DNA from: a virus
IMG/VR virus record: IMGVR_UViG_3300046514_000499
Span: 1-38,354 of that record
Length of the DNA: 38,354 bases
Strand: one strand, 5' to 3'
The notes below the pieces were generated by a model. It ran no database searches. It worked only from the letters and a program-made list of their open reading frames with translations, and was not told where the DNA came from. How positions within the stretch are numbered: the stretch's first letter is position 1; each line of letters starts with the position of its first letter. Positions 31,304-36,781 of the stretch are shown in pieces. A program made the position numbers and the translations under genes.

Positions 31304-32617
31304 GTGTTCCACCCCGAGGTCATCGACCGCGCTGAACGCGCGGTCAGTGCGTCCCTGAAGGGGACGCTGCCCGGCGGCCGCCTCGTCCGCCGCTCCCTCG
31401 ACGAACGCTGGTCCATGCGTGACCAGCTCGCCTCAGCCGCCCCGAAGAAAAAGGGCGAGCCCGCGGCGCGCCCCCTCACCTCGTCCGAGAGCGACTTCAT
31501 CACGCACGAGCTGCTCCTCGCCAAGCTCGACTACCGCTACTGGAGTGACGCCTGGGCCGTCATCACCAAAGAGACCCAGGACGCCGCGCCCATCCATCCG
31601 CGCTGGGCGAGCCAACAGCTCTTCCTCGACCACGTCGCCGCCATGGAGATCGACCAGTTCCGCGCCGGCAGCCAGAACGGCGTCCTCGTGAACGTCGGCA
31701 AAGCGCGCCAGCTGGGCCTCTCGACCGAACTCGAGGTCATCATGGCGCACGGCGCGACGACGCAAACGGCGCTTCGGGGACTCGTCGCCGCCGACGTCGA
31801 GGACCAGTCGAAGTACCTCTTCAGCCTCTTCGAGGGCATCGTCAAGGAACTCCCGTGGTGGCTGCTCCCGACCCTCGGGGCCTACGACACGGGCCGCTTC
31901 TGGTCGACCCTGACCAACCGGACGGAAGTCCGCACGGCCTGGGGCAAGTCGTCTCGCGGCGGCCTGGCCGACGACGCCAAAGCCAAGGGCAACATCGGCC
32001 GCGGTAAAACCTTCGGCCGGGTGCACCTGTCGGAACTCTCGACCTGGGAGAAGCCCGACCAGATTGACGACGGCCTCATCCCGGCCATCCCGCGTCGCCC
32101 GCGGTCCTTTGCCGGCTTCGAGTCGACCGCCAAAGGTCGGCACGACTGGTGGCACACGCACTGGACGGCGACCGCGCGGGGGAAGACCCGGTTCAGGAAC
32201 ATCTTCATCCCGTGGTACGTCGAGCCCGAGAAGTACTGGGCCGTGCCGACGTCCCTCACCTGGCAGCCCGACGCCGGCACGCTCGCCCATGCGGTGGCCG
32301 TCGAGCGCGAGTCGCCCGAGTGGCTCTTCGGCAAGACCATCCGGCTCACCCGCGAGCAGCTCGCCTGGTACGAGCAGACGCGCGACATGTACACCGAGAA
32401 GGGCGACCTGTACAAGTTTTACGAGGAGTACCCGGCCACCCCCGCCGAGATGTTTCAGTACTCGGGCCGCTCGGTCTTTACCGCCGCGACGCTCGAAGCC
32501 GTCCGCCGGCAGGAGACCGCGCCGCGGATCCTCAAGATTGAGCCGGCCAAAGACATCGCGACCCTCAGAGCGTGGGAACGCTCTGAGGAGGGGCGCTCAG
32601 GTGCCCCGCGGCCATGA
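31304..32617 (+). CDS. terL: Terminase large subunit, ATPase part (split gene)
   Basis: DNA-packaging motor ATPase. The terminase-type Walker A KARQLGLST is at residues 133-141, and the Walker B/catalytic glutamate strand is GRVHLSELSTWEK (E244). Further terminase hallmarks follow: SFAGFESTAKGRHDWWHTHW, FRNIFIPWYVEPEKYW and YEEYPATPAEMFQYSGRSVF. The gene then stops at 32617, before the nuclease domain, which is in the next gene. GTG 31304 has no Shine-Dalgarno but a TAGACT box six bases upstream. The last 60 bases hold two hairpins (32563-32607), unusual for coding sequence. Normally both domains are one protein of 450-750 residues; here they total 755. Confidence 0.88.
   Translation: MFHPEVIDRAERAVSASLKGTLPGGRLVRRSLDERWSMRDQLASAAPKKKGEPAARPLTSSESDFITHELLLAKLDYRYWSDAWAVITKETQDAAPIHPRWASQQLFLDHVAAMEIDQFRAGSQNGVLVNVGKARQLGLSTELEVIMAHGATTQTALRGLVAADVEDQSKYLFSLFEGIVKELPWWLLPTLGAYDTGRFWSTLTNRTEVRTAWGKSSRGGLADDAKAKGNIGRGKTFGRVHLSELSTWEKPDQIDDGLIPAIPRRPRSFAGFESTAKGRHDWWHTHWTATARGKTRFRNIFIPWYVEPEKYWAVPTSLTWQPDAGTLAHAVAVERESPEWLFGKTIRLTREQLAWYEQTRDMYTEKGDLYKFYEEYPATPAEMFQYSGRSVFTAATLEAVRRQETAPRILKIEPAKDIATLRAWERSEEGRSGAPRP
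32563..32607 (+). other. Two tandem hairpins at the terminase ATPase/nuclease junction
   Basis: First hairpin: perfect 11-bp arms CCTCAGAGCGT (32563-32573) and ACGCTCTGAGG (32578-32588) closed by GGGA, a GNRA tetraloop. Second: GGGGC (32590-32594) and GCCCC (32603-32607). They end seven bases before ATG 32614 and would place the nuclease ribosome-binding site (GAGGAGGGG, 32585-32593) inside the structure. Confidence 0.75.
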
Positions 32618-33570
32618 GCGAGCCGCTTCTCCTCCCAGCCGGCATGGGCTTCCGCGTCCCGTCGGCGCAGGAACTCCGCGAGACCGCCGAGGCGACCTCG
32701 CTCGGTCTCGACCTGCTCCTCTGCTACGAACCCCCGCGCCGGCGTGGCACCTACCGCTACGTCATCGGCGCCGACATCGGCGACGGCCTCGGGCTCGATC
32801 GCTCGGTCGCCCAAGTCGTCCGGCAGGGATCGATCGACGAGCCCGACGAGCAGGTCGCCGAGTTTGCCTCGGACACCATCGCGCCGGCCGAGTTCGCGTC
32901 GATTCTCCTCGCGCTCGGCGACTGGTACCGCGACGAGTCCGGGTACGAGGCGCTCGTCGCCATCGAGTGCAATAACCACGGCCTGTCGACGCAGGATACG
33001 CTGCAGCTCCACCTCGGCTACACCCACTTCTACCGCTGGGAGTACTACGACTCGGCCGACCCGTCGGCGCGGTTCTCGACCAAAATCGGCTGGATGACGA
33101 CGACGCGCACCCGCCCGATCCTCCTCGACAAGTTCCGCACGGCGCTGACGACCCGCGACGCGGTCACCGGCCTCCCGGACCTCATCACCCACAGCCCGCA
33201 CCTGCACGAGGAACTCAAAGACTTCCAGACGCAGGGCGCGCTCTGGGAAGCCGAGGCGGCCAAGGGCGCCCATGACGACCGCATCATGGCCGCCGCCATC
33301 GCCTACTACTGCACCTGGCGGCTTCGCGCGGGGGAGCAAGAGCCGCTCGAGGACCGACGTCGCCGTCGGTCAGAACAAAAGGCCGCGCTCGTCGTGGCGG
33401 CCGACCGGGCCGCCGCCGGCACCCCCGACTTTCGCAACACGGCCTGCACGGCCGAGGAAGCCACGTCGCTCCCGACCGGCCCGGACGCCACTGAGGCGGC
33501 CGACGAAGAGGCGTTGTATGATCTGCGCGCGACGGACGTGAGTGCCCATGACGGGTTCTTCACTATCTAG
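32614..33570 (+). CDS. terL: Terminase large subunit, nuclease part (split gene)
   Basis: RNase-H-fold headful/cos nuclease that cuts concatemeric DNA. Catalytic acids are visible in YVIGADIGDGLGLDRSVAQV (D54 and nearby), ALVAIECNNHG (E118) and GAHDDRIMAAAIAYY (D221/D222), the standard DE...D set of large terminases. ATG 32614 overlaps the ATPase stop as ATGA, so translation is coupled. The last 70 residues are an acidic/alanine-rich tail. Together with the previous gene it forms a two-polypeptide terminase; a sequencing frameshift is unlikely because the overlap is a clean stop-start and both new ends look natural. Confidence 0.87.
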   Translation: MSEPLLLPAGMGFRVPSAQELRETAEATSLGLDLLLCYEPPRRRGTYRYVIGADIGDGLGLDRSVAQVVRQGSIDEPDEQVAEFASDTIAPAEFASILLALGDWYRDESGYEALVAIECNNHGLSTQDTLQLHLGYTHFYRWEYYDSADPSARFSTKIGWMTTTRTRPILLDKFRTALTTRDAVTGLPDLITHSPHLHEELKDFQTQGALWEAEAAKGAHDDRIMAAAIAYYCTWRLRAGEQEPLEDRRRRRSEQKAALVVAADRAAAGTPDFRNTACTAEEATSLPTGPDATEAADEEALYDLRATDVSAHDGFFTI

Positions 33571-33585
33571 CCCGCGAGGTGTGTG

Positions 33586-34095
33586 ATGCGCGTCTCCCTC
33601 CCTGACGACCTGGTCGACCTCTACTCCCAGTACGCCGACGCCCACGCGCTCCCGGTCGAGTCCGTCATCGCCGACCAGCTCGTGCACGCGCTGCCGACGC
33701 TCGGCCGCCCGTCTCTCACGCTCGATCAGGCCACCCTCGAACTCCTCGCCAAGAAGCTCGGCGCGGTGACGTTTACCAGCGTGGCCGACCTAGTCATCCG
33801 CGTGTCGCAGCTGGCCGGGATCCGCTTCCACCGGGTCGACCTCGACTTCACGCCGTCGCAGCTGGTGGAACTCGAGACGCGCGCCGCCCGCCAAGGGCTG
33901 CCGGTCGAGCGGCTCATCCGCGAGATCCTGCGTACCTTCAACGACCAGTTCTTCTGGAAGGCGACGGGCGACCTGCCGGTGCTCGTCCGCGAAGCCGCCC
34001 AAGCCGACGAGGACGCCGCGCTCGACCGCGCGATCGGCGTGCCGCCGCCGGCGTTGAAGCCGACCGCCAAGGCCCCGAAGGCCGCGCGAGCGTAA
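33586..34095 (+). CDS. Ribbon-helix-helix-like protein, 169 aa
   Basis: ATG 33586 has an AGGTG site. The N terminus MRVSLPDDLVDLYSQYADAH followed by LPVESVIADQLVHAL reads like a ribbon-helix-helix (CopG/Arc type) motif, and a second, similar unit occurs at about residues 85-125 (VDLDFTPSQLVELETRAARQ, LPVERLIREILRTF), so the protein may be a tandem repeat of the fold. The C terminus is Ala/Lys/Pro-rich. A DNA-binding role near packaging genes is plausible, for example as a small terminase-like factor. Confidence 0.6.
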   Translation: MRVSLPDDLVDLYSQYADAHALPVESVIADQLVHALPTLGRPSLTLDQATLELLAKKLGAVTFTSVADLVIRVSQLAGIRFHRVDLDFTPSQLVELETRAARQGLPVERLIREILRTFNDQFFWKATGDLPVLVREAAQADEDAALDRAIGVPPPALKPTAKAPKAARA

Positions 34096-34627: not shown

Positions 34628-36781
34628 ATGGCGGATTACTCGTCCTCGGGCCTCGAAGGCATGGGCCTTCCCTCCCTCACGCACGACAGTGTCAGTGGCA
34701 CGGGCGACCCGCGCGTCCTCGGCTGGATCAAGGAAGCTGTCATGGAGGGCGACCGGATCAACCGCTCGGACCCCTTCTACGACCGCGCCGAAATCGGGAT
34801 GCGGTACGTCTCAGGCGACCAGCGCGTGAATGCCGAGAACGCCGCCGAGCCGCCGGCCTACCTCCCGCGCACCACGCTCAACGAATCGCGCCGCGTCGTG
34901 AACGCGCACGTCTCGGCCCTCACCGACCTCAAGCCCCTCTTTTCCTACAAGTCGATGGACCCGGCCTTTACGCTGCAGGCCGACTATCTCAACAAGCTGA
35001 CCGTCGCCTGGTGGGTCACCGCCATGGCCGACATCGAACTGGGCTACGTCATCAAGTACGCCGAGGCGGCCGGCACCGGGGATCTGGTCACCGAGTGGAA
35101 CCCGTACACCACCCTCGGCGGCGACATCGCGATCCAAGCGCGCGACTTCCGCGACACGCTGCCCATCCGCCCGGCGCCGCACGGCCGCTCGGTCCAGAAC
35201 TGGGAAGGGCTCATCCTGCGCGAGTCGCATACGGTGAACGTCCTGCGGTCGCTCTACCCGCAGTACGCCGCGGCCTTCCGGCCGACCACCGACTCGATGC
35301 TCAGTACCCTCATGGGCCGGTTCCGCCAAATCTCCGGCCGCTTCTTGTCCCCCGCCAACGACACGCTCAGCGGGTTGAACGCGCCGGCCATGGCCTCGCG
35401 CGTACGCAGTGGCGAGATCCTCCTCTACCGGACCTATCTCAACGACCGCTCGCAGAACCTCACGACCAAGGCGATTCCCATGGGCACGCCCGGCGCGTCC
35501 TGGTCGTACATCGTGCCGCCCGGCGGGTACCTCTACCCGTACAAGCGCATGGTCGTCTCGACCCCCGAGCAGCTGCTCTACGACGGCCCCTCCCCGTACT
35601 GGCACGGCCAGTACCCGGTCAGCCGCCTCAAAATGTGGGACCTGCCGTGGCATTTCCTTGGGCAGGGGCTCCTCAACGACCTCATCCCCATGCAGGATGG
35701 GATCAACCAGTCCATCCAGGACGTGCTGCTCGGCATTCGCAAGTGGATGGACCCGGCCGTCGTGTACGACCGGGGCGCGGTCTCCGAATCCTTCATGCGC
35801 CTGTACGACGCGCGCCGGCCCGGCAGCAAGGTGAAGCTCAACCCGACCGGATCGAAGGAAGGGTTCAAGCCGCTCGAGGGGCCGCCGCCGCAGGTGATGC
35901 AGCTCTCGCTGGAGATTATCCAGTTCCTCCTCCAGCGATTCGACTCGCTCTCCGGCACGCCGAACCTTCAAGAGATTCTCGCGCTCCGGCAACTCCCGGC
36001 CGCCGACACGATCGACAAGGCGCTCCAGGCTCTCACCCCCGAACTCCGCCAAGAGGGCCGGCAAGTCGAAGCCTTCCTGCGCGACGTGGGCGAGCAGTCC
36101 AAAGTCCTGCGCTTCCAGTACGAGTCGTCCGCGCGCCGCGTCACGATCCTCGGCGACGCCGGCACGCTCCTCCAGGACTTCGACTTCGACCCCGAGGTCC
36201 TCGTGCCGGCGCTCACGCCCGGCACGCCGGGGTACTCGCCGCTCATCGACGCCCAGCTCACGCGGGACCAGCGCGCGCAGGGCGTCCACAAGAAGATCGT
36301 CTTCGTGCTCGCGCCCAACTCGATCCTCTCGCTGAACGCCATGGAGGGGAAGCTGATGAAGCTGCAGCTCTCCCGCATGGGCATGATGGACGTGTGGTCG
36401 CTCTGGGAGGCGCTGGAAATCCCGAACGCCGGGGCGCCGCCGAAAATCCCCCTGCCGCCGCTGAAGCCGCTCGACCCGCAGATCGTCCAGCAGGTGATGC
36501 TGCAGGCGCAGCAGGACCCGGCGCTCGCCGCGCAGCTCAGCCAGCAGTACACCATCGACCCGGCGACCGGCCAGATTCTCGAGATCCGCGAGCCGGTGAC
36601 GATTGTCGAGCGCCTCCAAGCCCAGGCGCAGCTCGGGATCGGCATGACCCAATCGGCCGCCGGCCGTCCCGCCTCCGCGCAAGCCCCACCGCACATGGAG
36701 CAGAAGTCGGACGGGCGGACCACCGTCGCCGAATCGACGCACGACAAGGGGCCCAACAGCCGCCCCGGGCCCGGGACCTAG
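34628..36781 (+). CDS. Portal protein
   Basis: Dodecameric ring at the capsid vertex through which DNA is packaged and released. At 717 residues it is the size of larger (P22-like) portals. Recognisable features are the N-terminal wing with DRAEIGMRYVSGDQRV, the crown/stem region YPVSRLKMWDLPWHFLGQGL followed by NDLIPMQDGINQSIQDVLLG, and LQRFDSLSGTPNLQEILALR. The C-terminal about 110 residues are Gln/Ala/Pro-rich (QIVQQVMLQAQQDPALAAQL), like the barrel helix of long portals. The start ATG 34628 lies eight bases after TATAGT, part of which is the previous stop codon. It follows terminase as in most tailed phages. Confidence 0.9.
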   Translation: MADYSSSGLEGMGLPSLTHDSVSGTGDPRVLGWIKEAVMEGDRINRSDPFYDRAEIGMRYVSGDQRVNAENAAEPPAYLPRTTLNESRRVVNAHVSALTDLKPLFSYKSMDPAFTLQADYLNKLTVAWWVTAMADIELGYVIKYAEAAGTGDLVTEWNPYTTLGGDIAIQARDFRDTLPIRPAPHGRSVQNWEGLILRESHTVNVLRSLYPQYAAAFRPTTDSMLSTLMGRFRQISGRFLSPANDTLSGLNAPAMASRVRSGEILLYRTYLNDRSQNLTTKAIPMGTPGASWSYIVPPGGYLYPYKRMVVSTPEQLLYDGPSPYWHGQYPVSRLKMWDLPWHFLGQGLLNDLIPMQDGINQSIQDVLLGIRKWMDPAVVYDRGAVSESFMRLYDARRPGSKVKLNPTGSKEGFKPLEGPPPQVMQLSLEIIQFLLQRFDSLSGTPNLQEILALRQLPAADTIDKALQALTPELRQEGRQVEAFLRDVGEQSKVLRFQYESSARRVTILGDAGTLLQDFDFDPEVLVPALTPGTPGYSPLIDAQLTRDQRAQGVHKKIVFVLAPNSILSLNAMEGKLMKLQLSRMGMMDVWSLWEALEIPNAGAPPKIPLPPLKPLDPQIVQQVMLQAQQDPALAAQLSQQYTIDPATGQILEIREPVTIVERLQAQAQLGIGMTQSAAGRPASAQAPPHMEQKSDGRTTVAESTHDKGPNSRPGPGT

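Follow-up and report, generated by a model that had tools for sequence, protein, structure and literature searches.

Separate ATPase and nuclease genes for the large terminase in a clade of uncultured tailed phages, probably split once and later re-fused

The stretch of DNA analysed here (the window) is a 38.4-kb virus record of 38,354 nucleotides in which the two domains of a large terminase (TerL) are encoded by separate genes, placed head to tail on the plus strand 5' of a portal gene. The first gene (31304..32617, GTG start, TGA stop) encodes a 437-residue TerL ATPase and the second (32614..33570, ATG start, TAG stop) a 318-residue TerL nuclease with an RNase H fold; as originally predicted, the two reading frames meet in an ATGA stop-start overlap (32614..32617, plus strand). 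The sequence GKARQLGLST at ATPase residues 132-141 (31697..31726), which we take to be the Walker A region, includes K133, R135, Q136 and G138, each invariant in all eight aligned ATPases, and the same is true of H241 and E244 in the HLSE motif at residues 241-244 (32024..32035), presumably the Walker B and catalytic glutamate region. On the nuclease side, the acidic residue D54 (32773..32775) is the same in all alignment rows covering its column, and E118 (32965..32967) and D221-D222 (33274..33279) are invariant in 14/14 sequences.

By direct annotation the locus is inconspicuous. All six window proteins tested, the two terminase halves among them, fell short of the Pfam gathering cutoff, and the PHROG matches of the window ATPase and nuclease were weak. 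Across the clade the ATPase half is matched by PHROG 5989 (347 positions) and the nuclease half by PHROG 24361 (162 positions); judging by the short length of these profiles, single-domain TerL genes may already be present, unremarked, in reference sets. Profiles of the relatives are more informative, that of the ATPases matching T4 gp17 in the PDB by sequence and that of the nucleases matching the RB49 gp17 nuclease (E 5e-12). Measured against five relatives, the ATPase gene has a dN/dS of 0.03-0.13 and the nuclease gene one of 0.02-0.13; as neither exceeds 0.13, both genes are under purifying selection. The portal-like gene (34628..36781, plus strand; PHROG 156 portal, E 9e-7) lies about 1 kb 3' of the terminase genes, and no tRNA genes were found in the window. 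The gene that adjoins the nuclease gene (33583..34095, plus strand) encodes two ribbon-helix-helix-like stretches, its Pfam match to a FitA-like RHH family is weak and below cutoff (E 0.039), and similar genes also follow the nuclease in L031 and L218. Its product is a candidate DNA-binding partner in packaging and perhaps supplies the small terminase that is otherwise missing, although its matches are below cutoff.

When the two proteins are modelled, the position of the break becomes apparent. AlphaFold models of the ATPase and nuclease, built from the relatives' alignments (mean pLDDT 82 and 70, respectively), both found T4-type terminase structures as their best structural matches, with a Foldseek E value of 4e-14 for the ATPase model against the T4 gp17 ATPase domain. 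Superimposed on T4 gp17 (PDB ID: 3cpe), the ATPase model covers gp17 residues 67-360 (VIA Z 22.3-22.6) and the nuclease model gp17 residues 366-561 (VIA Z 22.9), so that about five gp17 residues separate the aligned ends of the two halves, and the ATPase has a tail of about 46 residues beyond its aligned part. The junction thus maps between gp17 residues 360 and 366, which places the break in the interdomain hinge, a flexible linker in T4 gp17. According to the models both domains are complete and neither has lost residues at the join; comparison with a contiguous terminase, which had been proposed as a check for missing or added residues, therefore reveals none missing in the gp17 alignment. 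The window shares with T4 gp17 (3cpe, 2o0h) and the RB49 gp17 nuclease domain (3c6a) the same two folds in the same order, but in T4 they form one chain and here they are two genes. Other features of a gp17-type TerL are found, namely a P-loop packaging ATPase domain, an RNase H-fold nuclease with conserved acidic residues and a portal gene nearby; what is absent, from the window as well as from 51 of the 79 distinct relatives across the wider clade, is the union of both domains in one chain.

To establish whether the split is real, 14 IMG/VR contigs with ATPases 97-99% identical to that of the window were aligned with it. The split and its ATGA stop-start are present in all 14 near relatives (15/15 loci with the window), which bears out the prediction of a large terminase encoded as separate ATPase and nuclease genes. 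Silent changes are common among the 15 loci and a 12-nt in-frame insertion lies just before the ATGA in eight of the 14 relatives; because the split is retained in every locus despite these changes, we rejected the idea that it results from a sequencing error or a frameshift artefact. An additional, intact TerL elsewhere in the genome was likewise rejected: there is no extra ATPase copy, a single ATPase match being found in 12 of 13 records and none in the 4.4-kb fragment L053. The nuclease matched once in the window and in 10 of 12 relative records, not at all in L182 and twice in L162, where the two matches lie at opposite contig ends and look like one gene running across a circular join. 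The layout of the L162 record (71,076 bases) suggests that this member of the clade has a circularly complete genome of some 71 kb. A first scan of bacterial genome contigs confirmed no close relatives; in a second, all the loci obtained were distant (27-38% identity), and wherever both halves were recognised and sufficiently complete to be retained, the gene was fused. The plasmids searched gave distant matches only.

We then consider how far the split extends. Relatives were found by pattern-plus-tblastn scans of IMG/VR, profiles were made of each half and loci were scored with both; the ATPase scan took in the best 80 of 102. Pairs were counted if they covered at least 250 ATPase and at least 170 nuclease profile positions, and identical pairs were merged. 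The result was 102 distinct, well-covered pairs, of which 52 are split and 50 fused. Within the clade proper 51 of the 79 distinct relatives are split and 28 are fused, and the 23 distant outgroup loci comprise 22 fused and one split. Five named reference phages have one TerL gene each and three further named phages do likewise (a single CDS in 8/8). The one split outgroup locus, L104, encodes the ATPase and nuclease in separate ORFs 256 nt apart, possibly an independent split, and it implies that fission has occurred at least once elsewhere. The survey of relatives proposed alongside the original prediction proved decisive and points to an ancient, stable split. The split loci are diverse in layout: 28 of the 52 have a start codon that abuts the ATPase stop or overlaps with it, a gap of 188-1011 nt separates the halves in the other 24, and all three frames of the nuclease relative to the ATPase occur (27, 16 and 9 loci). 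A PxGYGF motif near the nuclease start is found in 37/51 split and 28/28 fused clade members and in 0/28 outgroups; with 14 of the 51 split members lacking it, it is an imperfect marker.

The nearest cultured relatives found are the Tunturiibacter phages Tunturi_1 and Tunturi_2, whose TerL matches both halves. As in the window, the TerL of Tunturi_1 is followed by a small gene and then the portal; it is, however, a single protein of 723 residues where the window has two genes, and the nuclease start of the Tunturiibacter phages lacks the PxGYGF motif. A separate observation concerns Bacteroides phage BF1-TP2 (PQ571263.1, 40117-42144), in which a CDS that matches the TerL ATPase is labelled as a tail spike protein, an apparent misannotation.

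Most of the gaps between the halves contain plausible ORFs, usually unrelated ones. Among ten gap ORFs scanned, two are Tad2-like, one is an HNH endonuclease (in L181, on the opposite strand), two gave weak matches below cutoff and five gave no match. The Tad2-like anti-Thoeris genes lie between the halves in L150 (1923-2144, E 1e-24) and L153 (4466-4750, E 3e-23), indicating that the gap is a site for anti-defence cargo. The HExxH-like gap proteins of L051 and L170 share only a weak local match with each other. In a search of whole records, the nuclease was found 3.65-3.75 kb downstream of the ATPase in three further loci (L163, L164 and L168). The intervening DNA of L163 (L217:1612-4465) encodes a subtilase, signal-peptide-like ORFs and a borderline M15 peptidase, and that of L168 (L218:2371-5844) a subtilase, signal-peptide-like ORFs and a membrane-protein-like ORF. 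The halves in these three loci cannot be one interrupted reading frame.

The original prediction offered the split as a possible scar of an intron or intein, and a lost group I intron, intein or homing endonuclease could in principle have left one: inteins are known in TerL, for example in cyanophage Mic1 (PMC7156551), and one of the ten scanned gap ORFs is the HNH endonuclease of L181. As in the window, the TerL coding sequence of such interrupted genes is broken; there, splicing restores one chain, whereas the searches gave no splicing element for the window, where the cut lies at the domain hinge. The ATPase and nuclease genes of the window overlap with no intron between them, no intervening protein sequence is present at their join, and Rfam gave no match either in the window region or in 12 gapped relatives. 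Together with a join that sits in the hinge without loss of residues from either domain, and with gap genes that are varied and mostly not homing enzymes, this makes an intron or intein scar very improbable, and we have set that proposal aside. Programmed frameshifting, which would join the two frames into one TerL chain, possibly beside the two-chain form, draws on the fact that in the window's clade both frames are open together over 32587-32617. Nevertheless, none of ten loci checked has, close to the join, a slippery heptamer of the form X XXY YYZ in frame with the ATPase, the hairpin described below is 5' of the frame overlap and is not conserved, all three relative frames occur, and other sequence lies between the genes in 24 of the 52 split loci; we regard frameshifting as the most improbable of the readings considered here.

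The last bases of the ATPase gene contain two hairpins on the plus strand that had been predicted from the sequence and are present as described: a perfect 11-bp, GGGA-capped hairpin (32563..32588), which is variable even among near relatives, and a second hairpin of 7 bp (32590..32607). The 121-nt region examined folds with a z score of -3.05 against dinucleotide shuffles, a stem of at least 11 bp arose in none of 3000 synonymous resamplings of the last 24 ATPase codons, and of 60 windows of 70 nt drawn at random from the same gene, none folds equally well. Taken in the window sequence alone, the 11-bp stem is thus unlikely to be due to chance. Four other stems of at least 11 bp occur elsewhere in the window, and the segment 20680-24190, which is dense in GGCCGGCC-centred palindromes and other inverted repeats, holds three of the window's five perfect stems of this length.

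It had been proposed that these hairpins bury the Shine-Dalgarno sequence of the nuclease and so set the ratio of the two chains. The above-chance folding in the window would suit such a role, as would the stem of at least 10 bp in 9/15 near loci (8/14 near relatives plus the window), but the stem is absent from the other six near relatives (L006, L007 and L011-L014), where changes in the arms are uncompensated. Further afield, no stem of at least 8 bp was found over the final 70 nt of the ATPase gene in any of 39 other split loci. Their folding is unremarkable: in the median locus, 0.42 of the windows from the same gene fold equally well, and the value is 0.05 or less in only two of the 39. 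Since the hairpin is lost from six near relatives and all 39 other split loci, all of which are still split, we rejected it as a conserved regulator; any function may be private to the window's subclade. Between the ATG and the end of the AGGAGG that the hairpins could cover there are about 22 nt, and about 34 nt in the eight relatives with the insertion. This is too far for the AGGAGG to be the Shine-Dalgarno of the nuclease, and the window lacks any Shine-Dalgarno-like motif up to 25 nt from the nuclease start. Hidden-site control of the ratio is therefore unlikely. The accompanying idea that translation of the nuclease depends on translation upstream fares better, being probable from the ATGA overlap and the lack of a nearby Shine-Dalgarno.

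The direction of change between the split and fused forms was addressed with quick trees of the ATPase alone and the nuclease alone and a more careful tree of the combined halves (76 rows: 42 split, 26 fused and eight fused outgroup sequences). The single-half and combined trees omit 13 rows, which were near-duplicate, partial or nuclease-poor, as well as 18 of the 23 unnamed outgroup loci, including split L104, which was placed in a separate tree. In the ATPase, nuclease and combined trees alike, 25 fused sequences form one clade nested inside split lineages, with support of 100/100 in the combined tree, and L165 is a second, separate fused line. The fused rows formed one group in 0/200 bootstrap trees. 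An AU test rejected a tree with all split rows and L165 on one side of a branch, which would place the fused clade beside the outgroup (p = 0.0077, at a cost of 62 log-likelihood units). By parsimony on the combined tree, one split and two fusions suffice, against seven splits if fusion is disallowed.

The root is held less firmly. Support for the branch between ingroup and outgroup is 93/79 in the combined tree, the outgroup being distant and the branches long; in the nuclease-only tree the outgroup does not fall on one side of a branch, and some split subclades are placed differently there than in the ATPase tree. With outgroups so remote and ungrouped by the nuclease, the nesting is more secure than either the root or the direction of change. 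Fission by a single mutation may also come about more readily than fusion, so that the argument from simple parsimony loses some weight. A fused ancestor of the clade, followed by several independent splits and no re-fusion, accordingly keeps some weight: the distant outgroups are almost all fused, as are the eight named phages, the weakly held root leaves room for it, and L104 exemplifies a split that arose separately. It nonetheless requires seven separate splits on the combined tree and runs against both the AU test and the bootstrap trees, and we judge it rather unlikely, if less so than the other alternatives. The distribution of PxGYGF, for its part, agrees with fusion of a formerly free nuclease, which is not proof of it.

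The best explanation, and in our judgement a probable one, is a two-protein terminase that arose by one early split, was mostly retained and later underwent re-fusions. We suggest that the large terminase is made as two proteins, a motor chain carrying the P-loop ATPase and a cutter chain carrying the RNase H-fold nuclease, from adjacent, translationally coupled genes, so that one message would serve for two chains. From what is established for overlapping genes, the simplest way to start the nuclease would be termination-reinitiation at the ATGA. The chains would probably assemble non-covalently on the portal, with the nuclease docked on the motor or portal and acting in trans. A single split, early in the history of a large clade of uncultured tailed phages, is the most likely origin, and most lineages appear to retain it; other genes would later have settled between the halves, and these would have been re-fused at least once, in the 25-member clade, and probably twice (L165/L166). 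A bolder extension, that the nuclease is a free, separately regulated trans subunit with a copy number of its own, that the gap is a stable site for cargo (anti-defence and possibly lysis genes) and that fusion has reversed the split at least twice, we put forward tentatively, at somewhat less than an even chance.

In a survey of jumbo phages, a TerL with an ATPase and a C-terminal RNase H nuclease is given as universal, and the nuclease domain as a universal feature across Caudovirales (PMC7824862). A search of the open-access literature, outside which most subscription papers lie, found no TerL constitutively encoded as separate ATPase and nuclease genes. In actinobacteriophage annotations, the ATPase domain and the nuclease domain of a terminase each have a product name, which suggests that isolated split cases exist. 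The domain pair is ordinary; it is the gene architecture that appears unusual, old and sometimes reversed. Pipelines that seek one full-length TerL may miss or mislabel such phages.

Packaging models assume that the ATPase and nuclease are tethered one to one. With a free gene for each half, and as much as about 3.7 kb between the two, the need for this tether becomes testable, and the split clade opens the questions of how many nucleases are needed per motor and how cutting is restrained during packaging, for which the fused clade provides a natural control to the split lineages. If the bolder reading of a free trans nuclease is true, a covalent tether between cutter and motor would be unnecessary for headful or site-specific cutting.
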